A DNA stretch of 64,000 bases from Candidatus Poribacteria bacterium (GTDB lineage: Bacteria; Poribacteria; WGA-4E; WGA-3G), in NCBI GenBank assembly GCA_003635195.1, contig PYIY01000004.1, positions 1-64,000 of the forward strand, read 5' to 3'. The notes below the pieces were generated by a model. It ran no database searches. It had not been told where the DNA came from and saw only the letters and a list, made by a program, of their open reading frames with translations. A program made the translations under genes and the position numbers. Each line of letters begins with the position of its first letter. Position 1 is the stretch's first letter. Below are positions 377 to 19,198 of the stretch, piece after piece.

Positions 377-1438
377 ATGAAACGTCTGATTTTTGAAGAT
401 ATATACAGTTGGGGGGTCTTTAGTCCAGAACGACAGATAGATTTTAACGGACATTTATGGGTGCGTCCAGATGGAAATATTCTGATAGATCCGGTACCCA
501 TGTCCGATAGCGACAAGGAACAGCTGACAGCACTCGGTGGTGTGCAGTCGATTGTACTCACAAATGCCGATCACGAGCGCGAAGCTGCTACCTTTCAAGA
601 ATGGACGGGTGCCGACGTGATTGTGCATGCAGCGGATGCCGACGCGTTGGATATTACACCGACCCGAAGGGTTCAAGACCGTGAGGCGATTGTGCCTGGC
701 TTACATGCTATCCATCTCAGCCACGGAAAAAGTCCGGGTGAGATCGCACTCTATTTTCCAGAGAAACAGACCGTCTTGTTTGGGGACCTGGTGGTCGGTG
801 AACCGATGGGTGCATTGACTTTACTTGCTGATGCTAAACTGAACGATCCGCCGAAAGCAGCACTTGAACTCCGTAAAATTTTAGCACTCCGGTTCAACAC
901 GATCCTTGTCGGTGATGGACACTCCATTTTCAAGGATGCGCGTCAATACCTTGTTGATTGCCTACAAGCACGGCGCGATATCTATATCAATCGAATCCAT
1001 ATTGATGAGATTGCGTGGCAGTATAAAAACGCGCCACCGCCTTATGATTTTGAGGACAAAGACATTGACCCACTCATCGGTGGCAAGAATTTGGGGTATC
1101 GTGTCATCCGTCTGCAACCGGGCAAGATGAGTTTCCCGATGCATTTTCATAACTTCGGTGAAGAGATGTGCTATATCATGGAAGGGAGCTGCACGCTTAA
1201 AACGCCGCGGGGCGATGTCGAAGTCAGAGAGGGGGATTTCATCGCGTTTCCGCCCGGCACAGTCGGAGCGCATAAGTTCGTGAACAACACCGATGCTCCG
1301 GTTGCGTTCCTTATTCTTGGTACAACCACGCCACACGATGTGAGTGAGTATCCAGATTCCAACAAGGTCCTGCCTTATGTCGTTGGAAAGATTTACCGTA
1401 AAGACCCAAGTCTCAGTTATTGGGATGGCGAGGTTTAG
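377..1438 (+). CDS. MBL-fold-like hydrolase fused to a C-terminal cupin domain
   Basis: ORF 353 aa; N-terminal beta-lactamase-like layout (LTNADHERE, GDLVVGE, VGDGHS) and C-terminal cupin signature PMHFHNFGEEMCYIMEG...GDFIAFPPGTVGAHKF. Confidence 0.7.
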   Translation: MKRLIFEDIYSWGVFSPERQIDFNGHLWVRPDGNILIDPVPMSDSDKEQLTALGGVQSIVLTNADHEREAATFQEWTGADVIVHAADADALDITPTRRVQDREAIVPGLHAIHLSHGKSPGEIALYFPEKQTVLFGDLVVGEPMGALTLLADAKLNDPPKAALELRKILALRFNTILVGDGHSIFKDARQYLVDCLQARRDIYINRIHIDEIAWQYKNAPPPYDFEDKDIDPLIGGKNLGYRVIRLQPGKMSFPMHFHNFGEEMCYIMEGSCTLKTPRGDVEVREGDFIAFPPGTVGAHKFVNNTDAPVAFLILGTTTPHDVSEYPDSNKVLPYVVGKIYRKDPSLSYWDGEV

Positions 1439-1465
1439 GGGACTTTAAGAAGGAATTCGTAAGTT

Positions 1466-2821
1466 CTATTTTGATCTACGCAGTCTTTGGTTCTCTTTTG
1501 CCCTTGCGTCTGCCAGTTCTGGATTGACGATCTCACGCAGGGCAATTTCCATTTTACTGCGTCTTGCTGCATATTCAGGTTTTGATGCCAAGTCATCGTT
1601 CTCCAACGGGTCAACGTTTACATTGAACAACTGCGGTTCGCTTCCGAGGTAATAACATAGTTTGTAATCTCCATCCTTGAGCATGAAACCGGCGTTAAGC
1701 ATCCCCATGTGGTGGTACTCCGAAAATACAGTCCGCGTTCCTTCGTTTGCTTCATGTCGGGCCATTTCTAACAAACTATCTCCGGGTAAATCAGATGGTA
1801 CTCCCAAACCAGCGATCTCCAGTAAAGTCGGCAAAACATCTACCAAGGAAACGTTCTGTGCCACGCGCCCGGTTTCGCCTGAAGGCAGTCGTAGCATTAA
1901 CGGTACTTTCACTGCGGGTTCGTAGAAGCACTGTTTCTGCCAGTTTCCGTGGTGTCCAGCCATTTCGCCGTGATCGCTGGCATAGATGACAACTGTATCT
2001 TCCGCCAACGGAGATGTATCAATCGCCTCAAGTATCCGTCTAATCTGGGCATCAAGAGATGAAACAAGGGCGTAATAGGCGGCTAATGCACAACGCACGG
2101 TGGCTTCAGGTGGTGGGATGTCGTTCCGCCACGCCCAACGGTGGTGTTGGATTATGGGGTGCTGGGATTCAAGCGGTTCGTTCCACGTAGCAGGTAGTTC
2201 AAGGGTGTCTGGGTCGTACAGTGAATAGAATTCCGGGGGTGCAATCAGTGGAAAGTGTGGATGCATGAATCCACAATAGAGCAGGAACGGTTTATCGTTT
2301 GGCGAAGCCGATTTTTCGCGGAGGAAATCCACTGCCAAGTCCGTGACGTTTCGGTCATATCTCGTGTGTTCATGGTCCCCCGGTCCGCATTCGGCGACGT
2401 GCGAATTGGAACCTCGACGTGCGTCCGGTGTGCGCCGTGGTGGTCTGCCGGTTGTGTGTCTCCAGCGAGGTAGATCGTCCAACAAACGCTGAGAAAAGCC
2501 GAGCAGGCGATCAGTCCCATTGAAATGCGTCCGTCCGCATAACACGGTTTCATAATCCGCCTCTGCCAAATAGTCGCCCCACGTTTGGTGCCGTCGGTCT
2601 AAGATTGCCCCTAAATCCCACGCTTCGATTTGGTGCGGATAGCGTCCGGTGAGCATGGCCAGGCGTGAAGGTGTACAGATTGGATAATTGCAATAGGCGT
2701 TGTCAAAGGTGTAACTTTGATCAGCAAGGCGATCAAGATGAGGTGTCTGGACAACTGGATGCCCGCTATTCCCCATCACAGCACCCGCGTGTTCATCTGA
2801 AAATAGAAAGACGATATTCAT
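1466..2821 (-). CDS. Sulfatase (arylsulfatase family, CTPSR active-site motif)
   Basis: MNIVFLFSDEHAGAVMGNSGHPVVQTPHLDRLA...YPICTPSRLAMLTGRYPH; ORF extends to 2953 but the homologous start is the ATG at 2821. Confidence 0.9.
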   Translation of the reverse strand: MNIVFLFSDEHAGAVMGNSGHPVVQTPHLDRLADQSYTFDNAYCNYPICTPSRLAMLTGRYPHQIEAWDLGAILDRRHQTWGDYLAEADYETVLCGRTHFNGTDRLLGFSQRLLDDLPRWRHTTGRPPRRTPDARRGSNSHVAECGPGDHEHTRYDRNVTDLAVDFLREKSASPNDKPFLLYCGFMHPHFPLIAPPEFYSLYDPDTLELPATWNEPLESQHPIIQHHRWAWRNDIPPPEATVRCALAAYYALVSSLDAQIRRILEAIDTSPLAEDTVVIYASDHGEMAGHHGNWQKQCFYEPAVKVPLMLRLPSGETGRVAQNVSLVDVLPTLLEIAGLGVPSDLPGDSLLEMARHEANEGTRTVFSEYHHMGMLNAGFMLKDGDYKLCYYLGSEPQLFNVNVDPLENDDLASKPEYAARRSKMEIALREIVNPELADARAKENQRLRRSK

Positions 2822-3395
2822 CAATTTTGGGCTGGAGCCTCTACCTCTTTTTCCGTTGGCTTGGATGCCAAAATATAGTATAATGTTACCACGTTGTTGG
2901 TAAAGAATACAACCCGTATATGCAACTATATAAGACTTACGCAAATTGAGCAAATATCAGACGTAAAAAGTAGGAATTACTGCCCTTTATAGTAAAATTT
3001 GAAAATAAATGGACACTTTAAGAAGAAGATAACCCCCTTAGAAGAAACATCCCAGCAAAAACACCGCGTTATCAGGGGGGAATAAGATTGGAATCGCTTC
3101 GATTTGATGTGTTTCATTAATTATGGGCTTTACTCTAATTGGACACTCTGCACTGGTGCGGTTCGGAAACCGTGAAGAAACACCCCAGCCAAAAACCCTA
3201 CCGGGGGTGAAAGTGTGATTTTATTTTTAGGTTTACTATAAGTTCCTGCAATGAGGTAACCTATCAACGACGAAAACTGATGGCTGATAGCCAATAATCC
3301 TGATGCCTAATAAAAATGTTGACAATCCCCTCTAAGTTAACATATCATAGCGAGAAGCACTGACCGATTGCTACCGTCGGAAAGGAGTACTGAAA

Positions 3396-4199
3396 ATGGC
3401 AAAAGCCCTCTCACTCGTGGCATACGACGATTTAGAAAACCAAGTTGAAGCATTGGAAAGGGACGGTTATGTCTATTTCCCCGGTGTGCTTGATGCTGAG
3501 GAAGTCGCCGAATTGCGAGCAACCATGGACCGATTAGAGGCGATCCCAGAGTGCTTGGATCGACACCAGACCCCTGATAATGGCGGCAAATTCCTCAACA
3601 AAATCATTAACAACTCTTTTAATCGCGATTCACTCTATCTCCAATTCCTTGATAAATCACCGATTATTGAAGTCGCCGAAGCGACGCACGGCGACGATTG
3701 TCATTGCATCGGTATGCAATCGTGGTTGACAGGTCCCGGACGTCCGGATCAGGGGTTACATACCGATTGGCTGCCAATTGCCCTACCGGCAGATGTTCGT
3801 TCCGATCCACGCGTCAAAGTTCCAATCTTCATCACCACCGCCCATTACTATCTCAACGATATGTATGAAGAACTGGGACCGACGAAATTTGTGCCGGGCA
3901 GCCATTACTCCGGATGTTCTCCAAACGGACAAACCGAGTGGAATAACCGGACAGAAGAGAGTATCTTGTGCAATGCTGGGGATGTGGTACTCTTCCGCAG
4001 TGAAGTCTGGCATCGCGGTTCTGCCAATACGACGGACGAAACCCGTTACCTTTTGCAAGTACACTATGCGCAGCGGATGATTACACAGAAATACCCACCT
4101 TATCTAAATAAGTTTCAGTTCGACGAATCCATTCTCGACCAAGCGAACCGGCGACAGAGACGGCTCCTCGGCGATCATCGACCGAGCAATTACGATTGA
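3396..4199 (+). CDS. Phytanoyl-CoA dioxygenase (PhyH) family protein, paralog 1
   Basis: HTDW (HxD) iron motif, VPGSHYSG, distal WHRGSAN; GGAAAGGAG upstream of ATG. Confidence 0.88.
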   Translation: MAKALSLVAYDDLENQVEALERDGYVYFPGVLDAEEVAELRATMDRLEAIPECLDRHQTPDNGGKFLNKIINNSFNRDSLYLQFLDKSPIIEVAEATHGDDCHCIGMQSWLTGPGRPDQGLHTDWLPIALPADVRSDPRVKVPIFITTAHYYLNDMYEELGPTKFVPGSHYSGCSPNGQTEWNNRTEESILCNAGDVVLFRSEVWHRGSANTTDETRYLLQVHYAQRMITQKYPPYLNKFQFDESILDQANRRQRRLLGDHRPSNYD

Positions 4200-4387
4200 A
4201 GGTGATACATAATTTGAGATGTGTCCTTGCCGGATTTGAGCGATTGGACAACCCGTAGTGATGCCCTTTAGAATTATGAACCGCCTTAGTTGTCGGACAC
4301 CGCTCGTCGAAGGGAACAGACGTTTGTTATATCGCCTTACGAACCAGTAGCATTTTAGTAATCACTCATCTGTAACAGGAGGGACAA

Positions 4388-6130
4388 ATGGATAACGAAG
4401 TCATGACTACTGAAGAAAATTATGCTTTTGATGTGGCAGGCTACCTACACATTCCGAATGTTCTCAGTCAAGAAGCGGTGGCGGCACTCAACGAGGCATT
4501 GGATGCAGTTGGGGAGAGCGAAACGCTGTTAGGCGGAGACAGTCTGTATCGCGAATTGTTCCGCGACCTACTAGTCCAGCCTCAATTGGTGTGGTATTTG
4601 AACCAGATCATCGGACACGGCTTTCGACTTGACCAAGCCCCTCAATTGTTAGGGCAGCATGAAGGTGAAATAGGCGCGCCACTCGTCGGCGGTGATGAAC
4701 CGAGAAATCCGTCCTTGGCATATCGTCAACAAAACGGCAGACGGAGTTGTCAAGGCGTGAAAGCGGTCTGGGTATTGGAAGATGTCGCAGAAGGGGACGG
4801 TGGCTTGGTTGTTGTTCAGGCGAGCCACAAAAGCAATGTTGAAACGCCCCACGACTTGGCAACCGGCGCGGATGATATGGGGTTGGTGGTGCAACCGGTA
4901 CTGAAAGCAGGGGATCTGTTTTTGATCGCGGTGCCTACGCTCCAAGGCGTGCGCCCGTGGAAAGATGCGCCGAAAAGGTTGCTGGCTTATTGGTATGCCG
5001 CGCGTGCAGCGGTTCAATCCAATCCGCTTGGACCTTACTCGGAAACCGAGTCTTTGCCGGGATGGGCAGACGAAGCGACACCGGCGCAAAAAGCGGTTAT
5101 GTATGTCCCCGGGTATAAGGGTTCAAGTCCACCACCTGTGATAAATACAGACGGCGAAGAAACATGGGTGGAGGAAGACGCGTCTGTCGTTCATCCATCC
5201 ATTTATACCCGCGACCCAGATTCGGGTATTGATGAGAAGGAGTTTTACTTTTGGGATCTGAATGGATATGTAGTAGTGCGTGGTCTGATGGACGAGCAGT
5301 GGCTTGCAGAAGCCAATGAGGCAGTGGATAAATTCCAAGATCGCATCGTCGTAGGCGATGAACTTGCAGGCGGATCGGTCAGCCAAGCGGGGACAGGTCG
5401 TCCGCTCTTACCGGGCTTGTTAGACCTACCAGCTCCGTATAACGTGCCATTTCGACGCATGATTGCGCACCCTGCTGTGGTGCAGCGGCTCAATTGGATG
5501 GGCGGTAGCGGCTATCGCATGGGTGGCGCGACCGTATTCTGCGCGGTTCAAGGGACCTCGGGGCACGCGCTGCACGATGGCAATGAACCGATGACGCCAT
5601 CACGCGGTTATTATTTTAAGAACGGACGCAGTTATGCTGAGACTGTCACCATTACGTGGCAATTACGCGATGTCGAGCCGGGCCTCGGCGGTTTCGCGTG
5701 TGTACCCGGGTCTCACAAGACGCAATACTCTATGCCCCGCGGGATTCGGACGTGCGATGATACGATGGGTTTAGTGGTGCAACCCGTTATGAAAGCAGGG
5801 GATGTGCTTTTCTTTATGGATGGCGGTTGCACACACGGGGCCTTGGCGTGGAAGAATCCGATCCCCAGACGTGGGGTCTTGATTAAGTATCAGTCGAAAA
5901 ATGTTAATTGGGGCGGCGGTGTGATTGATCCACAAGACCGGTGGGGCGATATGGTTGAAGATATGACTGAGGTACAATTTTCTGTCATGCGGGGGCCTGA
6001 ACGCGATGGTCGCCACCGAACCGTCCCGCGACTGGTTGTGGAAGATGGACAGGTGTCCGTTTCGTACGATCCTGAAGGGGATAGTTATGCATCAAAACAT
6101 CGACGGAAACCGGGTGAAAAACGCGGGTAA
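4388..6130 (+). CDS. Two-domain PhyH-like protein (tandem dioxygenase-fold domains)
   Basis: Repeated landmarks: VVVQASHKSNVETP...MGLVVQPVLKAGDLF and ACVPGSHKTQYSMP...MGLVVQPVMKAGDVLF. Confidence 0.8.
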   Translation: MDNEVMTTEENYAFDVAGYLHIPNVLSQEAVAALNEALDAVGESETLLGGDSLYRELFRDLLVQPQLVWYLNQIIGHGFRLDQAPQLLGQHEGEIGAPLVGGDEPRNPSLAYRQQNGRRSCQGVKAVWVLEDVAEGDGGLVVVQASHKSNVETPHDLATGADDMGLVVQPVLKAGDLFLIAVPTLQGVRPWKDAPKRLLAYWYAARAAVQSNPLGPYSETESLPGWADEATPAQKAVMYVPGYKGSSPPPVINTDGEETWVEEDASVVHPSIYTRDPDSGIDEKEFYFWDLNGYVVVRGLMDEQWLAEANEAVDKFQDRIVVGDELAGGSVSQAGTGRPLLPGLLDLPAPYNVPFRRMIAHPAVVQRLNWMGGSGYRMGGATVFCAVQGTSGHALHDGNEPMTPSRGYYFKNGRSYAETVTITWQLRDVEPGLGGFACVPGSHKTQYSMPRGIRTCDDTMGLVVQPVMKAGDVLFFMDGGCTHGALAWKNPIPRRGVLIKYQSKNVNWGGGVIDPQDRWGDMVEDMTEVQFSVMRGPERDGRHRTVPRLVVEDGQVSVSYDPEGDSYASKHRRKPGEKRG

Positions 6131-6421
6131 TGGAGGACACGCTACCACCCAATCTACAAGAAATCGGGATTGAGACCCCTTCCACAAGAGACGGAGATCG
6201 CTCTTAGAGTTTCGTTGGTAAAAACAGGTTGTTTTTGGAACCTCGCACAACCTGTAAAGCGCGGGATGTTTTATAAGATTACCCGACGGACCGCTTGGCG
6301 GACAAGTGAAACAGAACCAAAACGGTCTCTGGAGGGGACATGTCCGTTAAATCAGCGTGCGGGCTGTTTGATGTGTGTTGTATGATATGAAAACCTAATC
6401 CTCATACTCTCTTTGATACGT

Positions 6422-6631
6422 TCACTTAAACTTATCAATCAACGCTTTGAGTTCTTCAAATGTGCCGTGATAGGAGATTGTCATGCCATCAGGGAAATGG
6501 ACACCACATTTCACATGTATGGATTCACCTGTTTTGAAGTCAATTTGGGCAACGTACTGTCCGACCCTGCAAACGCGTTGAACCCTGCTGAGCTGGATCT
6601 GCTTGCCACCGAGTTGAAGTTTCATAAACAT
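6422..6631 (-). CDS. Small uncharacterised protein (69 aa), paralog of the neighbouring 6678-6953 product
   Basis: Shared core VxRVGxxVxxxxFxTGESIxVxCGVxxPDxxTISxxGTxEdLKAxI. Confidence 0.6.
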   Translation of the reverse strand: MFMKLQLGGKQIQLSRVQRVCRVGQYVAQIDFKTGESIHVKCGVHFPDGMTISYHGTFEELKALIDKFK

Positions 6632-6677
6632 CTCCTAATTTTCATCAGTTAAATAAAACATGGGAAACCAAATAGCC

Positions 6678-6953
6678 CTATTTCTCGCTGTCGTAAGCAT
6701 ACCATTTCCTTTTCTTCCTTTTCGTCGGTTTCCTGTTAGTTGACTTGTTGGCTTCAATATATTCTGCCAAGAATGCTTTTAGGTCTTCAGGAGTTCCAGC
6801 AAATGATATGGTGTTGTCTGGTATTTTTACACCACATGTCACGGTTATGGATTCTCCGGTTACGAATTCGAGTATGCAAACTCTTGGCCCGACCCGTTTG
6901 AAGTGATTCACCTCTTTAGGGTCTATCGTCTTGCGACCGAGACGGACTTTCAT
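6678..6953 (-). CDS. Small uncharacterised protein (about 91 aa), paralog of 6422-6631 product
   Basis: MKVRLGRKTIDPKEVNHFKRVGPRVCILEFVTGESITVTCGVKIPDNTISFAGTPEDLKAFLAEY; internal ATG at 6953 preferred by alignment to paralog. Confidence 0.6.
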   Translation of the reverse strand: MKVRLGRKTIDPKEVNHFKRVGPRVCILEFVTGESITVTCGVKIPDNTISFAGTPEDLKAFLAEYIEANKSTNRKPTKRKKRKWYAYDSEK

Positions 6954-6976
6954 GGCGTTCCTTTCGTAAAATGCTC

Positions 6977-7465
6977 TCATTCCTGCCATTCTGCGTATTT
7001 CTGAAGTGTACGCGTATCAATACCTAACGATGCTGCGGCTTTCTGTAGTGTTGCGTATTGCTGTATACGTTTCTGTGCAACCGCATGCAGGATTTGATTC
7101 TGATTCATATCATTTATATCAAGAAATTCCCTTTCTTCCATCGTTTTCGGTATATTGGAAGCGGGCAGGTTACGCCAAAATCTTGCTGTCTGTTTTGAGA
7201 GTTCGTGCATAATTATGCGCTGTGTCTCCCGGGATAGTTTTTTCCATTTTGCGTCCTGCGTCTCCGACGGAAGTGTTTGCCATATAGAGACAAGTGCCTG
7301 AGAGAGTTCTGAGTAGATATTAGAAAAATCTTTGGGTTCCAATTTGTTATCGGACTCTCTTGTAAATCCTTTGCCTGGATACCGATGGCAATTTAATGAA
7401 TACTGACTGTTCTGACATAATGCATTCTTAAAGGTTGATAATGAAGTTCCGTTTTTGGTAAACAC
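6977..7465 (-). CDS. Putative DNA-binding protein with C-terminal Fis-type helix-turn-helix
   Basis: C-terminus YATLQKAAASLGIDTRTLQKYAEWQE resembles Fis/NtrC-type HTH; start uncertain. Confidence 0.45.
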   Translation of the reverse strand: MFTKNGTSLSTFKNALCQNSQYSLNCHRYPGKGFTRESDNKLEPKDFSNIYSELSQALVSIWQTLPSETQDAKWKKLSRETQRIIMHELSKQTARFWRNLPASNIPKTMEEREFLDINDMNQNQILHAVAQKRIQQYATLQKAAASLGIDTRTLQKYAEWQE

Positions 7466-8665
7466 GTCTCGTTGAGGTAATTGACCAGAATATCACCTTG
7501 TGTTTTTAAATTATTCGATAGTAAAATTGAGAATTAAGTAGACCCTTTTCCTCTAACAGAAGACAGTTCATAGGAGCAAGGTTCCCTCGTCTGCCAAATC
7601 GTAGTCAACTGTTAGCCTACGGCGTGAAAGCTTGATATATCCTTCGCGCAGGTCCTTACGACCGATTGCGATCAGCTGAATGCAGTGTTAAGTTATGATA
7701 GGTCAATTTTATAAAATATTTCAAATATTATAGGATTAAAGTCTATATCTAACCTAATTATATGGTATTTTTATAGAAAACGCAAATTATATTTATAAAA
7801 ATTGCTAATTTGTTTGAAAAGTGCGTAATACTTTAGAATTTTACCCAGCTTCTTAAAAGAAAAGTCCACTTTCCAAATACCGCGGGGCTCTTTAATACAT
7901 TTACCGAAACTCATAGACCGTCAGCAAAAGTTCTCACTCTCCATTACTTCTTTCACTTCCCCAAAACGCCGATGTCAATTTTATGGGACTGTCTGCAATT
8001 TTTGCGTATTAATAACCTAAGTTGCCCCCTTTAAACAGCCTGCAGAGCCATTCACTTGTCGATTTTTTCATCATTGTCGTGGAGGCATCGCGAGCGACAA
8101 GAAACCCGCAGAAACACCCAAACAAAAACACTCGCTCCTACAATGGAGTGTTCTTAGACAGAAAATCAAAATTATTGGAGAATTGAATGCCTCTGAAACA
8201 GCCTGGCTTTTATATGGTATTTAATTTTGGATTATGCTATAATAATCATATTGAACCATTATTTTACAATTTTTAACTAAAAATATAATTGCAGTTGAAT
8301 GATTTTTTAATTTAACTCGCGTTGGTTGCTCAGATGGCAACTTGGGTTACCACTAATGGAAAAAGAAGAAAACACAAATTCGGATCTGATGTGAAATATT
8401 TATCGGATAGGTCTTCCGAAAATAGCGGCGAATCATAAAAAGTTTTATTAGGATATTGATACATTTTTATTTTAATTTAAAAAAAATATGTCTTAATCTA
8501 ACTGACGCTTAAACCCTGATGACTATTGACTTTATGTCAATTTAAAATTTGACCAAAAATAAGATTTTTGATAATATACACTCTTAACTTTGGTAGAATA
8601 GATATCCAGAATTTATCCAATTCAAGTGTAGAAAAATCACTGACTGTAGTTAGGGAGGTGTGTCA

Positions 8666-11653
8666 ATGACAACCAAGGTCTTGGAAGATATTATTGCCCG
8701 CTGTCACCGACGGCACGAGAAGCCACTTAAGCAACGGAAGACGATCTCAGCACCTCCGCTTTACAAAGGGCTTCCTTACCACTTCACGGTCTATTGCGCT
8801 CACAGATACCCTGTGATGCTTCAAGACTTGGAAGCGGCAGGCATTTCCTTTATGCCGATAGGGCAGGCTCCTGGAGCTGACCGTCCGCCGCGTCATTTTG
8901 GAGGGGAGCGGTTCTTGAAACCTCAAGAGGTGACAGACTGGGGGATCACCCAATGGCACAAGTCGTGGGGGATTCACGTGTATACAGGTATTCCCTCGGC
9001 ACACGATGGCGCGCCCTGGCATGATATCGACTTTCAATATGAAGCTATCTGTGCTGCCCCGGATGCCGTTTTTGCGTGCGTTGAAGCCCTTGTTAACGCG
9101 GTTGCGAACCCATTGTTGACGCTGTCAAAGTCTGGTGGATTGCGCTTTTCTTGCAGGATACCGGAGTACCTGCACCCGAGCACCAACCAGGCACGGTTCT
9201 ATGTCTATAAAGGGACACCGTCAACGGAGAGTCCCGACCAATACGACGCGTATTTTGAAATTTTTGGCGAGAAAGGACACAATTGCTGGGATGCGCGTTA
9301 TGAAATCCTGCTTGGAAATCTGTTAGATCCGCCAGTGATTCCTAAAGAGGTTTTCTTTGCACCGATTGATGCCCTTCGTGCTGCACTGCCCGAACCTGTT
9401 TCGCAAAATGTCCAACACAAAGAGAATATCCCCGAGGTACCATACTCTCTCGGATCGGGCAAACTTGATCTCGCCAAAGAGGCGTTTTTTAAGCGCGGGT
9501 TTTCTTATGTCAGACAAGAGGATGGATTTCACTATTGGAACCAGGGAGGTAGTGAGATTGACAACACAGAGGTAGCATTGTGGGAGAGTGAAAGTGGCGT
9601 GTGGGTACGTGCCTCTACGTCTGATACTGGGCTGCCTATGGAGGCAATGCTCATAACAGATGTTTGGAACGACACTGGCATCTTGCCGCCGACCCCTGCG
9701 ACAGGGCTGCCTATAGACGATAAGGTGATCGCCGTACGGGAAGGGAAACTTAGTCCACTATCAATAAAGCGTCCTACTCCTATATTACACAAGTCCGAAC
9801 CGCCCGAAAATACTTATGAAACACACGAAGAGATTAGTGTTCAGGTGCAGCGTGCTTTCGATAGGAATGTGCGTGTCCTTGGATTTACTGCCGAGATAGA
9901 CGCAGAGAAATACCCTGAAGTAGAATCCGTTCTGCGTACGCGTAAGGCAATCTGTTTAAAGGTACCGCGCGTTGATCTTGCGGCAGTAGCATCGCAATTT
10001 CTTCAAAGCCGAGATGTCAGATCGGTGGCACAGTGGCGGGATCAGATGCATCTCTGGAATCAGGTGAAAGATACCCCCAGTACCCGACTGTTTTCGGACC
10101 CAGAATACGCAAAAATAGCGGAACAACTTCTCGAAACGCGCGAGGGAACACAACCCCTCTGTATCATCAATACCCTCGGAGAGGATAAACTGTTTCTTAG
10201 ATGCAAATTCTCCAGAACCACACTGAAGGCGTGGGTTGCCAATTGGCAAGGCAATGCCTTAGGCAACTTTGCGATAGCTCTCCTGAATGCAGTAGACATC
10301 AAAGATAAATCCCCTGGAAACTCTATCAAACGGCTCCGAACAGTGGTTCAGACGTTTGAATGGCTGGAAGAAGAGATCATCCAACAGATGTGTCACGTCG
10401 ATGCGGCGACTGTTGAAAACATTCAGGCGTTCCCAGCGGTTTATGCGGATCCAAGTTGGACGTTTTGGCATCAACTCAAACGTTTCTTTGCACATTACAC
10501 ACGGGACGCTGATGCGCCGATGCGATGGGAGGACGAAGCCCTACAGTTCCGAGTGCCGCCGATGCTGCATCCGAGCGTCCAATACCTTTTCGTCAATACA
10601 CCAACTCTCTACGCTGAACATTTACAGCGGACATTCTTGGATGTAGAAACCGAGATCCTTCGCACGCAACCGATGGTGTGGGTTCCCGGAAACCGCGTTT
10701 TTCAGATTCGCACCGGTATCTATCCACAAGAGACAATTTTAGACCTCAGCAATACTTGGGACATTATGGCGATGTCTGAAACGGGGCAGCACATTTTTTC
10801 CAGAATTCAAGCGGAAATAGAAAGAGATCGAAATATTAAGCATGGGATTATAACCCATGTTCCGGCAATTGAACAGTTGAAGGATATCACGAAAAATGAG
10901 AATGTCTGTTTCTTGAGGAGTTTTCGAGATTTTCAAGAAGTGGAAGGATTGGAAATTGCCCTTCAAGAAGGATTAGAAATCGCCCTTCAAGAAGGACAGG
11001 TCATCTGGATGGTTGGCATGCCGGCAATGGGAGCACGCGCCCTTTTGAATCGCACGCAGATCCTGTTTGGAAACGACAAGGAGCCCCTCTCTTATGAAAT
11101 GGAACCAGAATTCTACCGTTATAAAGACGAACGCGTTCAGAGCGTCTATGAAAAAGAGATCACCCGTATATTCACAGAGATTATAAAGTTGGCACAGTTG
11201 AACCGTTTGGCACACAAGACAGTTATGTTGATTACAGGGTTGCGAATTCCTGAGATCACCGATAGACCCGAAACCCTCCTTTTTGACTGGGAAGATTTCG
11301 AGGTTGCTGGCGGGTTAGACAACCTCGCTGAGGTGGTAGCAACACGCCAACGTTTTGAGACGGAACGCGACAATCTGACACCTGAATCCAGCAGACAAGA
11401 AGTAGAACGTGTATTAGGATGTTCCCCAAGACAGGCGAACCGAGTGTTGCAAAAGCTGAGAGGTGGGAAGGCACGTGTCACTTTTCGCGAGCAAATTCTT
11501 ACACTTCTCGCCAATGGCGAGAAAACAACACCGGAACTCGCAGCGGCGATTCTGGGACACCCAAAAGCAATAAACACAGAACTCACGCGCCTTGTGGAGA
11601 TGGGTGAAATTGTAAAGGTTCGACGCGGTGTTTACAGGCTGCCAGAACCTTAG
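8666..11653 (+). CDS. Large uncharacterised protein with N-terminal primase-polymerase (AEP)-like region and C-terminal winged-helix
   Basis: ~995 aa; WHDIDF (DxD), LSKSGGLRFSC and YFEIFGEKGHN motifs in AEP order; C-terminal ILTLLANGEKTTPELAAAILGHPKAINTELTRLVEMGEIVKVRRGVYRL wHTH; AGGGAGG SD before ATG 8666 (track start GTG 8660). Confidence 0.5.
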   Translation: MTTKVLEDIIARCHRRHEKPLKQRKTISAPPLYKGLPYHFTVYCAHRYPVMLQDLEAAGISFMPIGQAPGADRPPRHFGGERFLKPQEVTDWGITQWHKSWGIHVYTGIPSAHDGAPWHDIDFQYEAICAAPDAVFACVEALVNAVANPLLTLSKSGGLRFSCRIPEYLHPSTNQARFYVYKGTPSTESPDQYDAYFEIFGEKGHNCWDARYEILLGNLLDPPVIPKEVFFAPIDALRAALPEPVSQNVQHKENIPEVPYSLGSGKLDLAKEAFFKRGFSYVRQEDGFHYWNQGGSEIDNTEVALWESESGVWVRASTSDTGLPMEAMLITDVWNDTGILPPTPATGLPIDDKVIAVREGKLSPLSIKRPTPILHKSEPPENTYETHEEISVQVQRAFDRNVRVLGFTAEIDAEKYPEVESVLRTRKAICLKVPRVDLAAVASQFLQSRDVRSVAQWRDQMHLWNQVKDTPSTRLFSDPEYAKIAEQLLETREGTQPLCIINTLGEDKLFLRCKFSRTTLKAWVANWQGNALGNFAIALLNAVDIKDKSPGNSIKRLRTVVQTFEWLEEEIIQQMCHVDAATVENIQAFPAVYADPSWTFWHQLKRFFAHYTRDADAPMRWEDEALQFRVPPMLHPSVQYLFVNTPTLYAEHLQRTFLDVETEILRTQPMVWVPGNRVFQIRTGIYPQETILDLSNTWDIMAMSETGQHIFSRIQAEIERDRNIKHGIITHVPAIEQLKDITKNENVCFLRSFRDFQEVEGLEIALQEGLEIALQEGQVIWMVGMPAMGARALLNRTQILFGNDKEPLSYEMEPEFYRYKDERVQSVYEKEITRIFTEIIKLAQLNRLAHKTVMLITGLRIPEITDRPETLLFDWEDFEVAGGLDNLAEVVATRQRFETERDNLTPESSRQEVERVLGCSPRQANRVLQKLRGGKARVTFREQILTLLANGEKTTPELAAAILGHPKAINTELTRLVEMGEIVKVRRGVYRLPEP

Positions 11654-12049
11654 AACGGCAGCATTCCGTATTATCATTCCATTCTCATTTACCGAGTCTA
11701 CATTCCTTATCTATCTATACCCCAAGTTGCCACCCCCCCTCTTTATCCCCCCTATCAGGGCGGCAAGATTACAAGTGCTTGTTATGTGAAAGCAGATCCA
11801 TTCAGTTTTAAGAAATTATAGAGTTTCCCGCCCTTTTTCAGGATCCGGTGCGGTTAGGAAACCGCATCTACCGGGCCTGGGGGGCCAAAATTGGACTAAA
11901 AAACCGAGAACTGAATGGCTTTGATGTGAAAGTTGGCCTTGATAGAATTACCGAATTATTTTATTATGATGAAAAAAAAAATAAGTAGCCCTTCGCTGGA
12001 AGGCACGCTTAGAGAATGGTAAAGGATTGGGCAGCAGGAGTTTGTCAAT

Positions 12050-13447
12050 ATGCAACTTAAACATCTCAGTCAATCAGAACTTGTAAAGAAGGTCGGAATT
12101 TGGGTAGTGTCAATCCTACTCCTATTTTTCGGGTTTTACACGAACTTATGGCATGTTGCTGAACAGCAATGGTTTGCGAATCATCAGAAAGACACCGAAG
12201 CGCATATCATGGGAAGAATGGTCAAATCTCGACAAGATGGCATCTTCTCAGCGGGTGGTCTGAATGGTTGGGGTACAGCGAAAAGGACTGATGCGGAATG
12301 GATACCTTCAACAGCACTGGGTCCCCAATATACAGCTTATCTTTACAAGCTCTCTTTTGATAAATTCTCGCCGTATATGTCCCAACCTGGCGGGCAAGGG
12401 ATGGTTTTTAGTCTATTGGATAGACTCATTCCCCTATCACCTCAAGTCAAATTATGGTCATTCTATGTGTTGACAGCACTCCTCTCGGCAATCGCATTGA
12501 CGGCGATCATAGGTTGGTTTTATGAGGCGTTTGGTGGGTGGGTCGCGATATTCGTTATAGGTTCGGCTGTGCTTTCGCAATGGTTGACGGTCTTTGGTAA
12601 AAATCTTTGGTGGAGTCTATGGGCTTTTTACTTGCCGATGATTGCTGTCATGTACTTCCTTAAACGCTACAGAGAAACATTGGACCGACAACTCATCAGG
12701 TTTGGAATTGTTATCTTTATCGCAGTTTCTATTAAGTGTTTCATCAACGGCTATGAGTACATTACAACCACACTATTAATGATGATGGCACCGTTCGTGT
12801 ATTATGTTATCCTCGATAAGTGGAACCGCCAGCAATGCGTGAAATGGACGCTTGCAGCCGGACTCGGCTCAGGCGTAGCAATATTTTTCAGTTTCATCAT
12901 GTTATGCTTCCAGATCGGTGCTGCGAAGGATGGGTTTATGGATGGGGTTGAGCATATCATCTGGTCTTTTGGAAAGCGCACGTATGGCGAGGCAGAAGAT
13001 TTTCCACCGGTATATGCTGCCAGCCTTGAAGCCGGGACAATAGGGGTTGTCATTACCTATATGAACGGTATTTTCTTTGATCTCAACAACTATTTTTCTC
13101 AATCAAATTTATCAAAATTATTGGTCTTTAACTTCCTATTGAAAGTATTGAAAGTCCGCTATTATTATCTGATCGTTCTCTTTGTTGTGATGTCTGCGCT
13201 GCTGTTTTGGCGCAGCAATAAAGAGATACTGGCGGAGCGACGACCGCACTATATTGCATTAATCTGGACAACATGGTTTTCAATGCTGGCACCGTTATCG
13301 TGGTTCGTTATCTTCAAGGCACACTCCTATATTCATACGCACATGAGTTTTCTTCTCTGGCAGATGCCTTTTACGCTCTTTGGCTTTGCCGTGTTCGGAT
13401 CTGCCGTTATAGCGTGGACGAAAAAGACTGCGTCAACGCAAGGTTAG
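12050..13447 (+). CDS. Multi-pass membrane protein of unknown function
   Basis: 465 aa with many hydrophobic segments. Confidence 0.65.
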   Translation: MQLKHLSQSELVKKVGIWVVSILLLFFGFYTNLWHVAEQQWFANHQKDTEAHIMGRMVKSRQDGIFSAGGLNGWGTAKRTDAEWIPSTALGPQYTAYLYKLSFDKFSPYMSQPGGQGMVFSLLDRLIPLSPQVKLWSFYVLTALLSAIALTAIIGWFYEAFGGWVAIFVIGSAVLSQWLTVFGKNLWWSLWAFYLPMIAVMYFLKRYRETLDRQLIRFGIVIFIAVSIKCFINGYEYITTTLLMMMAPFVYYVILDKWNRQQCVKWTLAAGLGSGVAIFFSFIMLCFQIGAAKDGFMDGVEHIIWSFGKRTYGEAEDFPPVYAASLEAGTIGVVITYMNGIFFDLNNYFSQSNLSKLLVFNFLLKVLKVRYYYLIVLFVVMSALLFWRSNKEILAERRPHYIALIWTTWFSMLAPLSWFVIFKAHSYIHTHMSFLLWQMPFTLFGFAVFGSAVIAWTKKTASTQG

Positions 13448-13536: not shown

Positions 13537-15762
13537 ATGGCAAAACTTACATCGATTTTGGGAAGTGTGTTATTTTTCGTACATGCAACTTTTGGGCAAA
13601 CAATCGGTCAGATTTCAGGAACTGTAACTGATGAAGCAACTCAAGAACCACTTGCTGGTGTCAAAATTATTATCGTGGAAACCACGCTGGAAACAATGAC
13701 CGGTAAGAATGGTTCTTACAAGCTAATCGATGTTCCGCCTGGACAGTATGAAATCAAGACCAGTCGGATTGGATATGAATCAATATCTTTAATCACCACC
13801 GTTTCTCCCAATGAAGATACCAAACTCAATATTTCGCTAAAGGAATCAATTGTATCTTTACCCACAGTCGTTGTGTCATCCGAAAAGTTAGCTGAGAGAA
13901 CTTCTGTTAGTGATATGGCACTGACAAAACGGATGTTGCAATCCAGACATGGTCTAATGGAAGATCCCTTACGCGTCATTCAGACAATGCCAGGGGTAAC
14001 GACACCGGGCGATCTGTTTTCAGCTTCTCAAATTTACATTCGAGGAGGTGCCCCAGAGGAAAATCTTTTCTTGCTCGATTGGGTACGGGTTTACTGGCCC
14101 TGGTATTTTGGCGGGATAAAATCTATTTATAACACAGATATTGTGGAAACCACTGAACTATTGACGGGCGGTTTTCCTGCGAAATATGGTAATGCCCTTT
14201 CGTCGGTATTGAGCATAACCACCCGCGAAGGGAATCGGGAACGAATTTCTGGAGCTTTTTCCTTCGGTTTTATAAACACGCAAGGGCGCATAGAGGGCCC
14301 CCTCACATCAAAGGCATCTTATCTCGTTACCGGTCGCCGCACCTACCTTGATCTAATACTCAAGGAAAGTGCTGAGTTTCCTGTTCCATCTTTCGCCGAC
14401 TTTAACTTCAAGTTCAGTTACGAACCGGCCGCTGGACATCACATTGACGTGAATGGTTTTCTATCCAAGGAAAATGTTGACTTTATCGCTGCTGATCCGG
14501 ACCCAGGTCTACCGGATAGGATCCTAACAGATGGCAACTTAAACACCCAGAGTATTGAATGGAAGGCACTCTTCAACACTAATCTTTACTCGAGGTTGTC
14601 TTTACTTCGAGCGCAGCCGACGTACAGCGTGGGAGTTGGGAGAAACCTTAATTTTGAGATTGATGGATCAACGGTTGGCGTTCGAGAAGACTTGACCTGG
14701 GAACTTCATCCAAATCACGAGTTAAAGACCGGTTTTGAACTGATACAGACGACCTTTGAGACATCAGGGAACATCCCCTTGGACCCCTCGGAGATTGATC
14801 CAACAGATATCTCTGTCCAATTGACTTCCTACGATTTTTCACAAAACACATGGTCCGGTGGCGGCTATCTACAGGATTCATGGGAACTCCTTCCGGTGTT
14901 AACTTTAACTGGAGGAGGGCGATTTGATTATTTTTCCCTCAACGAGAAGACGGACCTGTCTCCCAGGTTCTCCATACACTATAATCTGGCTTCAAAAACT
15001 GTTCTGCAGGCAGCTTGGGGGCATTATTATCAATTTCCGAATTCGCAGGACATCACCAGAGAGCCTGAGCTTCACTCCCCACTGGCGATTCATTATATTG
15101 TCGGAATTAGCCGTAAATTTAATAATGCATTTCACGGGTGGGTTGAGGTTTACCAGAAAGACTATCAAAATTTGGTCGTGGTCAATCCTCTGGAAGATTA
15201 TTCAAACGATGGGCACGGATTTGCCAGAGGCGTTGAATTTTTCCTAGAAAAGAAAACCGGTTCACTTGTGGGTTGGCTGAGTTACGCCCTGTCGGTCGCA
15301 AAACGCAAGTGGTATTTAGACACACAAGAATATGATTTCGACTTTGATCAACGGCATCTTTTATCATTAACGCTTTCATACAATTTTCCCGAGTCTTACA
15401 CGTCGAAGTGGTATATGCCCGCTGTTATAGTATTAACATCTCGATATGCCAGTGGCCGTCCCTACACCCCTATTATTTCCGCCGAAAGGGATCTAAACGG
15501 TGGATGGGTGCCGGTCAGAGGAGAAACCAACTCCCGTCGTTTTTCATCTTTCGAGAATCTCAATTTGAGAGTGGAATGGCAATTTTCGATGAGCCGTAAA
15601 CTTCAAGGCACCTCCTTCATTGAGATATGGAATATGTCTAATCAAAGAAATGTCCTGGGATTCAGTTATCAATATAGCGTGGAATATCGCAATAATGTAA
15701 ATGCTCACCCCTATTACACAACACCATTCCTACTGGCAGGTGGTTTCGGTATTAAGTTTTAA
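13537..15762 (+). CDS. TonB-dependent receptor with N-terminal carboxypeptidase-like regulatory domain
   Basis: ISGTVTDEATQEPLAGVKIIIVETTLETMTGKNGSYKLIDVPPGQYEI; plug DPLRVIQTMPGVTTPGDLFSASQIYIRGGAPEENLFLLD; beta-barrel-like C-terminus. Confidence 0.88.
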   Translation: MAKLTSILGSVLFFVHATFGQTIGQISGTVTDEATQEPLAGVKIIIVETTLETMTGKNGSYKLIDVPPGQYEIKTSRIGYESISLITTVSPNEDTKLNISLKESIVSLPTVVVSSEKLAERTSVSDMALTKRMLQSRHGLMEDPLRVIQTMPGVTTPGDLFSASQIYIRGGAPEENLFLLDWVRVYWPWYFGGIKSIYNTDIVETTELLTGGFPAKYGNALSSVLSITTREGNRERISGAFSFGFINTQGRIEGPLTSKASYLVTGRRTYLDLILKESAEFPVPSFADFNFKFSYEPAAGHHIDVNGFLSKENVDFIAADPDPGLPDRILTDGNLNTQSIEWKALFNTNLYSRLSLLRAQPTYSVGVGRNLNFEIDGSTVGVREDLTWELHPNHELKTGFELIQTTFETSGNIPLDPSEIDPTDISVQLTSYDFSQNTWSGGGYLQDSWELLPVLTLTGGGRFDYFSLNEKTDLSPRFSIHYNLASKTVLQAAWGHYYQFPNSQDITREPELHSPLAIHYIVGISRKFNNAFHGWVEVYQKDYQNLVVVNPLEDYSNDGHGFARGVEFFLEKKTGSLVGWLSYALSVAKRKWYLDTQEYDFDFDQRHLLSLTLSYNFPESYTSKWYMPAVIVLTSRYASGRPYTPIISAERDLNGGWVPVRGETNSRRFSSFENLNLRVEWQFSMSRKLQGTSFIEIWNMSNQRNVLGFSYQYSVEYRNNVNAHPYYTTPFLLAGGFGIKF

Positions 15763-15910
15763 TAGCATCAGAACTTACACAATGAAATAGATGGATTATC
15801 CTCAATCTCGCGTGCATCTTACATCGGATTTAGGATTCAAGATTCGGGATATCGTAATAATCCAAGTATCAACCGACGAAGGAAACAGAGAAAAGTAACA
15901 TGGAGGGTGT

Positions 15911-17728
15911 ATGAACACTAATCAATTGGACAGGTGGATTGGTAGAGACCGGTTGCGTCCTGACGAAATAGAGGGTAACCGCTTCTTAAAAGCGGCGAGT
16001 CTCTTCGCGGGGACAGCGATACAATACGGGAGAGACAGATACAGCGGCAGAGATATGCCGCTCTTTGCCGATTGCCTCCATACAGAGCATTTGAAGGCAC
16101 CCAGATCTATGACCTCCCACCGCACAGGTACCGAGCCGAAACCGGCGGTCTGGAGTTTCTTCCAAAATCAGCAGAATCTGATGCGATTACTCGCCTCTTT
16201 AAGCCAGTTCACTGGGGATAGCGAGTATGTCTATGCCGCGGGAGAAGCCGCCGAATATATGTTCAACAACTACTGGTATCCAGAGAGTGGTGTTCTGCAT
16301 TGGGGTGGGCACGGCTATGTGGACTTGGTCACTGGGAATAGATACGGCATGAAAGGCGTTGTCCACGAAATAGAGGACGTGTATCCGTACTGGGAGTTGC
16401 TGAGAGCCGTGGATCCCGACCGGGGCGAGATGCTGATGAAAGGGATTTGGGAAGCAAATATCAAGGATTGGGATGCCTTACATTACAACCGACACGGTGA
16501 TTTCAAAAAGCAGGTCGATCATGCCAATACTTGGAACAGACCTTGGAACGGATACAAAGCCCCCAAGATCAGTGGCGATCTTTCGTTTATCAGTGTAGCA
16601 CTGGATCTGGCTTATGCCGCTTACAGTTTGAGCTACCAAAAACAGGAAGCAGCACCGCGGATGTGGGCGGAACGCCTTTTAAATCTGATTATAAAGCAGC
16701 GAGACCCAGAGACCGGCATCTGGCCGAATCTGGTGCATCCGCAAAGTGGCAAACGCGGGCTCAACGTATTCGGCAGACTATATCCGCAGGCGACTGAACC
16801 GAGGGTCTATGTGGGCAATCAGTTGAACCACACGATTACGCAGATGATGGGTATGCTAACAATCGTAGAAAATGCCGAAAAATATGGGCGTATCGGCGAA
16901 ATGGCACACATCAAAGCAGCGGTTGCACAACACATCATCGGTTTCTTAGATGCCTCCTACGATCCGAAAAACAATACGCTGAAAAGCATCGTTATTGATG
17001 GGACCGATCTCACGGGTTTTCGGATAAAGGGACCTTTCAGAGATACGAAGTTATACTTTGGTGCGAAAGAAGGCGGGGCATTTCTGCCGCAAAACATCAC
17101 ACCGCTCTTCACCTCCGTTTGTGCGCGTGGGTATCGGGTTTCTGAAAGCAGAAGCGAGTTCAGGGACTACCTACGCACCCTATTTAAAGCCTTTGGGATC
17201 GGAGACATCGGTGCCGATAAGAACTCCCCACCCTCGTTAAATTTTGACACAACTGCCTTGGAACCCGCTTATATCTTCGCGCTGGTGGATCTGTATCGGG
17301 TAGAGCCGAAAGCAGAATTTCTGGCGATGGCAGAACGGATAGGCGACAATTTGCTGCAAGGCAGACAAGATGCCGATAGCGGTCTTTTTACACTCGAAGA
17401 TGATTTTATCCTCCACAGCAAGGTTATGGATAAACCCGAACTACAAGAGGGACATGAAGGGAAAAGCGTGGCTGAACTTCTGCAGGACAGTCATCAAACC
17501 GCGAATCTCGATGCGATGGAGCCTCTGTCTTTGCTCAGTATCTACGCGGCACAAACCGGACAGTACAACATCATGCCCGAATGGACAGCGGGTGGACTCT
17601 ACCTCAAGGTGAGCAGCGTCGGTCATATTGTGGGCAAAGAGATTCAACTGTGGTTTGACAAGCCAGCACTCAAGCAATTTTACAAGGACAATAACATCAA
17701 CTGCACCTGGTCTATTGATGAAGACTGA
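15911..17728 (+). CDS. Six-hairpin/alpha-toroid type protein, possible pectate/polysaccharide lyase
   Basis: 605 aa; HWGGHGYVDLVTGNRYGMKGVVHEIEDVYPYWELL; fold assigned from general composition only. Confidence 0.45.
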   Translation: MNTNQLDRWIGRDRLRPDEIEGNRFLKAASLFAGTAIQYGRDRYSGRDMPLFADCLHTEHLKAPRSMTSHRTGTEPKPAVWSFFQNQQNLMRLLASLSQFTGDSEYVYAAGEAAEYMFNNYWYPESGVLHWGGHGYVDLVTGNRYGMKGVVHEIEDVYPYWELLRAVDPDRGEMLMKGIWEANIKDWDALHYNRHGDFKKQVDHANTWNRPWNGYKAPKISGDLSFISVALDLAYAAYSLSYQKQEAAPRMWAERLLNLIIKQRDPETGIWPNLVHPQSGKRGLNVFGRLYPQATEPRVYVGNQLNHTITQMMGMLTIVENAEKYGRIGEMAHIKAAVAQHIIGFLDASYDPKNNTLKSIVIDGTDLTGFRIKGPFRDTKLYFGAKEGGAFLPQNITPLFTSVCARGYRVSESRSEFRDYLRTLFKAFGIGDIGADKNSPPSLNFDTTALEPAYIFALVDLYRVEPKAEFLAMAERIGDNLLQGRQDADSGLFTLEDDFILHSKVMDKPELQEGHEGKSVAELLQDSHQTANLDAMEPLSLLSIYAAQTGQYNIMPEWTAGGLYLKVSSVGHIVGKEIQLWFDKPALKQFYKDNNINCTWSIDED

Positions 17729-17784
17729 ACCGGACAGGTTGTTGACGAAGCGGCACCATAAGTGTCAATTAATGAAAGTTATTT

Positions 17785-18195
17785 TCACTGTGAATAATCG
17801 TTCCGTTTCGCTGGATCATCCGTGAAGTATTCGACGAACTCCCATTCAAAACCGTCGGCATCAATGAAATAGATTCGTTTTCGGTAGGGATGCGGTCCAA
17901 CTTTATACCCTTCTTTATATCCGGCAGCGAGCAAGCGTTCTCTGATACCCTGAGCATCATCAACAGCAAAGCCGAGGTGGTTTACATACCTCCCCTTACG
18001 GTCACCTGTGAAGGGCTGCTTGCGGTCTGACAAGGCGATGTAAAAATCGTCAGTTCCAAGATGACACCATTTCGTTCCGTTCGCGTTATTGCCACCGCCC
18101 CTGACTCGAAAATCTGGAAAGGCGGTTGTTAGAAAATCGATCGCTTTTTCAAGATCATTCACGGTCATGTTTGCGTGTTCAAGATAACGGCTCAT
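17785..18195 (-). CDS. VOC/glyoxalase family protein
   Basis: MSRYLEHANMTVNDLEKAIDFLTTAFPDF...NHLGFAVDDAQGIRERLLAAGY...YFIDADGFEWEFVEYF. Confidence 0.85.
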   Translation of the reverse strand: MSRYLEHANMTVNDLEKAIDFLTTAFPDFRVRGGGNNANGTKWCHLGTDDFYIALSDRKQPFTGDRKGRYVNHLGFAVDDAQGIRERLLAAGYKEGYKVGPHPYRKRIYFIDADGFEWEFVEYFTDDPAKRNDYSQ

Positions 18196-18394
18196 TTCTT
18201 AATCCTCCTAGAATGTGGTAGTTGTTGTAGCATAGGCTGTTAGTCTGTGGCACCGCGTCCACAACGAACAGTAGACAGTACAAAAACCCAGACCTCATAT
18301 ACCGACATATTTTTTCATTGACAACTTCGTTGTGGTTAACATATTATAGCACTAAGCGTTGACCTATTGCTACCGTCCGAAAGGAGTACCGAAA

Positions 18395-19198
18395 ATGGCG
18401 AAAGCCCTCTCACTCGTGGCATACGACGATTTAGAAAGCCAAGTTGAAGCACTTGAAAGGGATGGGTATGTCTATTTCCCCGGTGTGCTTGATGCCGATG
18501 AGATCACTGAATTGCGGGCAATGATGGATCGATTAGAGGCAATCCCGGAGTCTCATGATCGGGACGAAACACTTGAGAATGGTGATGCTTTCCTCCATAA
18601 GCTTATCAGCAACTCGTTTAATCGCGACCGGTTGTACCTCCAATATCTCGACAGATCACCGGTTATTGAAGTCGCCGAGGCAGCGCATGGCGAGGATTGC
18701 CATTGCATCGGTATGCATTCATGGCTAACAGGACCGGGACGGCCAGATCAGGGATTACACACGGATTGGCTGCCGATCTCTTTACCGGCAGATATTCGTT
18801 CCGATCCCCGCGTCAAAATCCCAGTCTTCATCACCACTGCCCATTACTATCTCAATGATATGTATGAAGCGTTGGGACCGACGAAATTTGTGCCGGGCAG
18901 CCATTTCTCAGGGTGCTCTCCAAACGGCACAACCGAGTGGAATAATCGGGGTGAAGAGAGTATCTTATGCAATGCGGGAGATGTGGTGCTTTTCCGCAGT
19001 GAAGTCTGGCATCGTGGCTCTGCCAATACGAGTGACGAAGTCCGTTATCTTTTGCAGGTACACTATGCGCAGCGGATGATTACACAGAAATACCCGCCTT
19101 ATCTGAATAAGTTTCAGTTTGACGAATCCATCCTCGCGCAAGTGAACCCTCGACAGAGACGGCTCCTTGGCGACCACCGACCCAGTAATTATGATTGA
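18395..19198 (+). CDS. PhyH family protein, paralog 2 (recent duplicate of 3396-4199)
   Basis: 267 aa, same length and roughly 85% identical by eye to the 3396-4199 product; start at internal MAKALS. Confidence 0.88.
   Translation: MAKALSLVAYDDLESQVEALERDGYVYFPGVLDADEITELRAMMDRLEAIPESHDRDETLENGDAFLHKLISNSFNRDRLYLQYLDRSPVIEVAEAAHGEDCHCIGMHSWLTGPGRPDQGLHTDWLPISLPADIRSDPRVKIPVFITTAHYYLNDMYEALGPTKFVPGSHFSGCSPNGTTEWNNRGEESILCNAGDVVLFRSEVWHRGSANTSDEVRYLLQVHYAQRMITQKYPPYLNKFQFDESILAQVNPRQRRLLGDHRPSNYD

Follow-up and report, generated by a model that had tools for sequence, protein, structure and literature searches.

The window examined here is a stretch of 64,000 nucleotides from a Candidatus Poribacteria metagenome-assembled genome. 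Between two core genes it carries an insertion island with a long open reading frame (8660/8666-11653, plus strand), which our check of the window confirmed to be intact. The features discussed below are the following:

4388-6130: PhyH gene, the left core flank
6131-12031, no strand: insertion island between core genes; the flanking genes are directly adjacent in several relatives
8549-8577, plus strand: putative sigma-70-like promoter, TTGACC-17-TAATAT, by consensus match only
8666-11653, plus strand: 995-codon open reading frame, predicted degenerate Prim-Pol / XPD-like helicase protein (open frame, homologues, dN/dS, structural model)
8666-9430, plus strand: AEP/Prim-Pol domain, residues 1-255 counted from ATG 8666 (AlphaFold2 domain model, Foldseek against PDB, conservation)
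9818-11269, plus strand: XPD/DinG-like SF2 helicase core, residues about 387-870 counted from GTG 8660 (Foldseek against PDB, hhalign, per-site comparison)
10076-10081, plus strand: Fe-S junction at about residues 473/474, where long paralogs carry a 66-residue Cys-cluster segment (alignment columns 533-598)
10400-10402, plus strand: second junction at about residues 580/581, the site of a further 75-80 residues or so in long paralogs
11387-11653, plus strand: HTH (about residues 911-936) and AbiEi_4-like winged HTH (about 944-995; Pfam AbiEi_4, E 4.2e-6)
12050-13447: membrane protein gene, the right core flank, present in 38 of 38 same-genus genomes

A GGAGGT Shine-Dalgarno sequence precedes ATG 8666, making it a better start than GTG 8660. 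This agrees with the start given in a first-pass annotation of this DNA, whose quoted peptides were all found in the reading frame and in the order claimed. That annotation had also described about 1.2 kb of non-coding DNA upstream and had placed the gene in an AT-rich island. The region 7466-8665 indeed holds no ORF above 80 amino acids; the AT-rich character applies to this upstream flank (33.8% GC) but not to the ORF itself (49.4%, against 47.5% for the whole window). The putative promoter falls within the most widely shared upstream stretch, at about 8540-8590, and an Rfam search of 7000-12500 gave no match. Further upstream, a 162-codon ORF on the minus strand (6977-7465) is part of a larger family of 370-400-residue proteins with an HTH-like end; this family has 16 matches in five genomes, several of them within about 8 kb of a primase-like copy.

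The N-terminus had been guessed to be a Prim-Pol/AEP domain, with the fold around its DxD motif as the point to check. We modelled this domain alone with AlphaFold2 (pLDDT 79.9, pTM 0.81) and found the AEP fold there: ranks 1-10 of a Foldseek search against PDB are all AEPs, headed by pRN1 ORF904. As the best probability, 0.99, comes with an E-value of 5.7e-3 and no E-value lies below 0.001, the Foldseek evidence on its own is consistent with an AEP fold rather than overwhelming. The primase motif residues are the acidic triad D122, D124 and E200 and the motif II SGGLR (R162), numbered from GTG 8660. Across the family, the first Asp is present in 94 of 95 members and the Glu in 89 of 95; the second Asp position holds Asp in 41 of 95 and has been replaced by E, H, N, T, Y or V in over half of the family. 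All six members of the window clade have D122, D124 and E200 intact. These motif I-III counts rest on alignment with the closer intact relatives described below, not with the distant relative from G018.

The motif II Arg had been presented as a departure from the expected His. It is found, however, in 95 of 95 family members and in 8 of 8 aligned intact relatives; Arg is therefore ancestral and no sign of degeneration, and we rejected the idea that Arg instead of His marks a dead primase. Nor does it exclude AEP membership, since the motif II His is family-specific among AEPs, Lys or Arg having been reported for the DR0530-like family (PMC5862659). The window protein gave no match to PF08800 (BT4734-like AEP).

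For the middle of the protein, the earlier suggestion of a helicase-like C-terminal lobe has held up. The AlphaFold2 model of the whole protein (pLDDT 80.5, pTM 0.77) has two RecA-like lobes in an XPD-like topology, and with it Foldseek retrieved from PDB XPD (2vl7, E 7.7e-8; 5h8w, E 3.0e-7; 4a15), the DinG-type CasDinG (7xex, E 6.9e-5) and UvrB, with TM-scores that are low over the whole chain. The viral models that it matched include phage Prim-Pols and helicases, and a profile search of PDB by sequence with A1 gave no match.

Six full-length relatives of the same domain order occur in the same Poribacteria lineage (L285:9488-12574, L277, L287, L288, L224 and L223). They share the AEP type of the window family, with DxD, SGGxR and YLEIF.EKG-like motifs, and they retain the Zn finger, the P-loop and the Cys cluster, as well as motif VI where it was read. 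The motif series of such intact relatives is DxD, Zn CHCC, GxGK[NTS], Cys cluster, D[ED] and QAxGRxR (QAVGRAR in L285). Aligning the family profile with a profile of four intact relatives by hhalign gave a probability of 100 and E 6.6e-46 over 896 columns, which is more than a chance resemblance; homology to relatives with the full motif set likewise makes the AEP assignment firm.

Compared with these intact relatives, the window copy is without the Zn finger, and the residues of Walker A and B and of motifs III and VI are lost. Where they have GAGKN or GTGKN it reads TAEIDAEKY, in keeping with the earlier remark that no Walker A is visible, and its residues at the Walker A, Walker B and motif VI sites are E-K-Y, N-T and E..L.Q. 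Also missing, and overlooked in the first-pass annotation along with the intact relatives on mobile elements, is the whole Fe-S domain, together with the second insert, a segment of about 75-80 residues that by its position relative to XPD may belong to the arch. Because Walker A, Walker B and motif VI are lost, we read the helicase half as a descendant of the XPD/DinG-type SF2 helicases and not as a working member; judging from the missing residues, the protein would have no ATPase or unwinding activity.

Zn ligands are absent in 95 of 95 family members. The second motif VI Arg is kept in 4 of 95 and Walker A and B together in 11 of 95; just one of these 11 (L149) has the second motif VI Arg, and it is without the first. 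The Fe-S domain is absent in 26 of 95, and its cysteines are kept in essentially all of the 69 long members. Forms that are without it also lack most or all of the second segment. As these forms fall at several places in the tree and differ in their deletion junctions in the alignment, the Fe-S domain appears to have been lost more than once, although cassette exchange can mimic repeated loss.

At the C-terminus, the two DNA-binding-like segments reported earlier, one of them a winged HTH, correspond to the HTH and the AbiEi_4-like winged HTH. With a cutoff of E<=1, AbiEi_4 was recognized in 31 of 40 members; in the window protein the match covers the winged HTH only (27 residues). No conserved partner gene of an AbiE system was found, the neighbouring ORFs searched having no AbiE match. 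With PADLOC giving no match beyond this winged HTH, and with neither a constant partner gene nor a constant defence neighbour at the family loci, nothing positive points to defence.

The interval 6131-12031 represents an insertion at a core site, because its flanking genes are adjacent in relatives. The PhyH and membrane protein genes are separated by a gap of 126 bp in G032, an empty site, and lie close together in G005, G020, G025, G003 and G017; a long family form takes up this position in G013 and G006. We found no integrase and no defined ends at 6131-12031, and the family loci compared have no recombinase, transposase, integrase or conserved termini in common. Their copies share upstream homology and, downstream, only a dispersed repeat. 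A right end of the element at 11925 was considered and rejected, as 11793-11925 looks like a dispersed, MITE-like repeat: it is short, is bounded by terminal inverted repeats of 15 nt and recurs at many unrelated Poribacteria loci.

Family copies keep orthologous positions across species, and the genes that flank them are unrelated. The housekeeping setting named beforehand as a point against the first-pass reading was not what we observed. Gene cluster F1 is found at 30 of 65 loci; we rejected it as a constant partner since its members, secreted proteins rich in repeats, vary in position and seem to have been grouped by single linkage. Some family copies form tandem arrays. Arrays with four family members of 773-1164 amino acids (L062 in G028, L063 in G021) include short members without residues about 250-350 and without the Fe-S region. 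A Rep_3 gene lies near three family loci: L010, from the window genome, L197/L084 and L199. At L010, another copy of the window genome (C29) adjoins the Rep_3 initiator and, judged by eye, a gene for an RRXRR/IscB-type protein as well as cas genes of type I (L010:11225-12529 and 13713-18882).

Several of the intact relatives have mobile-element genes around them. In L272 the intact copy adjoins genes for a tyrosine integrase (PF00589) and for a Dam-type methylase, and Rep_3 initiators lie beside relatives in L220, L273 and L290, where Rep_3 adjoins, respectively, the G018 fusion (next to a DNA methylase as well), a fragmentary pair, and a related AEP protein with a seemingly different C-terminal half. 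In the G018 protein, a BT4734-like AEP (PF08800, E 6.5e-24) is joined to a helicase whose motifs are GTGKTT, Cys cluster, ILILDEVN and QAAMRLR. The intact primase-helicase of L285 stands beside a SIR2-like and NACHT gene pair (Pfam; 896-6077) and near small genes that by eye resemble a toxin-antitoxin pair. Related AEP N-domains also occur with a different helicase-like half in proteins of 1218-1284 amino acids (L278, L280, L281); this half has STGKST, DEVDF and GRRG motifs by eye, and one such protein (L290) is near Rep_3. As a separate observation, the rpoB match in the same-genus genomes G013, G025, G003 and G005 (L300-L305) is split by about 1.1-1.2 kb within one frame of 1709-2269 codons, which looks like an intein; rpoB is unsplit in G078 and G079 (1343-1355 codons).

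The gene had been called an orphan, a description that fits its neighbours, which are unrelated and include no constant partner, but not its copy number: the window genome has five more copies (C29, C99, C117, C132 and C90), six in all, and relatives have dozens. Our survey with a profile of 40 members found clear members in 32 of 38 same-genus genomes and in 16 of 18 genomes of a second genus (g20) of the same family. The profile found no clear member in two further genera of this Poribacteria family or in other families, the exceptions outside the two genera being a winged-HTH-only match in a 239-codon frame (G047) and the distant helicase relative of G018. The homologous loci that the GTDB collection yielded are all labelled Poribacteria. 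Plasmid and phage records and IMG/VR contigs, queried with the window protein, A1 or L224, yielded no homolog; the Pfam, NCBIfam, PHROGs and PADLOC libraries searched contain nothing of the family but its last ~50 residues, and the literature searched held no published description of it. The family is Poribacteria-specific, multicopy and chromosomal, and occurs in sponge-associated Poribacteria.

Nei-Gojobori estimates, made on few genes, gave dN/dS of 0.23-0.33 over many pairs, which argues that the window protein is not a decaying relic, contrary to the earlier suggestion of a replication relic in that sense. By segment, the ratio is 0.28 for the AEP domain, lowest for the C-terminal HTHs (0.205) and highest for the disarmed first RecA lobe (0.49, a ratio inflated by low dS). 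When short forms from different species are compared, dS is 0.11-0.20 in the central cassette (about residues 386-600) and about 0.24-0.75 in the outer segments; compared with syntenic long forms, the central segment is not low (0.41-0.58). Between the window genome and G078, of another genus, dS is 0.34 for the short forms and 0.67 for the one core gene compared. With the short-form cassette below both its flanks and the core gene, these values suggest horizontal exchange by recombination, and they point to recombination between species and between paralogs as the means by which the family has spread and been remodelled.

On this evidence, the window protein is likely to be a disarmed descendant of a mobile-element replication protein of plasmid/phage type that joined a Prim-Pol, a Zn finger, an XPD/DinG-type Fe-S helicase and an HTH. 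That judgement refers mainly to identity, origin and disarmed state, the last two of which have good support. The Prim-Pol acidic triad, the SGGxR motif and the C-terminal DNA-binding domains have been retained by purifying selection. The protein probably has a new use, for example interference with invading DNA, because the motor has been lost and yet the protein is selected, multicopy and exchanged between species. We propose only tentatively, and at less than even odds, that this use is interference with related mobile DNA. The HTH, winged HTH and remaining helicase scaffold would bind DNA without unwinding it; the bound protein would occupy, or abortively prime, origins or replication intermediates of related mobile elements, and would thus act as a dominant-negative or incompatibility-type interference factor, with many diversified copies covering many elements. 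The intact primase triad of the window clade is compatible, too, with a primase that works or with a terminal transferase. It is more doubtful still that the family represents a new class of anti-mobile-element factor, in which replication proteins of invaders were domesticated, stripped of their motor, diversified and exchanged as cassettes to block related elements.

A selfish gene, mainly promoting its own dispersal between loci and species with no host benefit and perhaps a residual primase role in recombination or repair, would account for the patchy presence (6 of 38 same-genus genomes without a clear member, others with many), the tandem arrays, the insertion polymorphism at the core site and the dS below core genes. 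We consider it unlikely: no recombinase, transposase or conserved termini travel along, orthologous copies are fixed in site across species, and loss of the motor would be no help to replication. It also seems improbable that the protein is a repair or damage-tolerance Prim-Pol, its AEP active in priming or filling chromosomal gaps and its dead helicase a mere DNA-binding scaffold. The complete triad of the window clade and the AEP-domain dN/dS speak for such a role, but replacement of the second Asp in so many members fits poorly with a conserved polymerase function, and the many diversified copies per genome also speak against it.

A DNA-binding regulator of transcription or plasmid copy number, in which only the C-terminal HTH and winged HTH matter, would agree with the lowest dN/dS lying in that segment and with the AbiEi_4-type winged HTH; since the ~850 residues upstream of the HTHs are under purifying selection as well, it seems quite improbable. 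Least credible is a decaying pseudogene left by integrated elements. Catalytic motifs are lost and a few copies carry stops, as such a relic might show, but frames of about 1000 codons are open in most copies across dozens of genomes, which together with the dN/dS largely refutes it.

Replicase relatives that are under selection and, as predicted here, catalytically dead offer a natural test case of hosts turning the replication proteins of invaders to new functions. Since intact and disarmed forms coexist in one lineage, the steps can be ordered: loss of the Zn finger and motif VI, then repeated loss of the Fe-S domain.

Among known systems, the Prim-Pols proper of the pRN1 ORF904 type (also NrS-1 and CAPP) resemble the window protein in the fold of the N-domain, in the order DxD, SGG, E and in the fusion to a helicase on mobile replicons; they differ in that motif II of the window protein carries Arg in place of the His usual in AEPs and that its helicase is XPD-like with a motor that is predicted to be dead. 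The long paralogs and intact relatives resemble XPD and DinG in having a Cys cluster where those enzymes have their Fe-S domain, between Walker A and B, whereas the window copy has neither this cluster nor the ATPase motifs of XPD, DinG and CasDinG. CasDinG itself has a functional motor and a vestige of the Fe-S domain, and it shows that a DinG relative can lose the Fe-S cluster (PMC10450177). The G018 fusion is homologous to the window protein in its helicase half and has a different AEP domain. A precedent for the proposed interference is the Thermus ICETh2 Prim-Pol, which is reported to be dispensable for replication of its element and to limit DNA uptake (PMC7693054). By description it is a mobile-element Prim-Pol, and its helicase is a separate gene. 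According to Kazlauskas et al., almost every bacterial AEP in the PrimPol-PV1 group belongs to an integrated mobile element (PMC5862659). In contrast to the window protein, its intact Poribacteria relatives keep the Zn finger, Walker A and B and motif VI, and some of them lie near integrase or other mobile-element genes.
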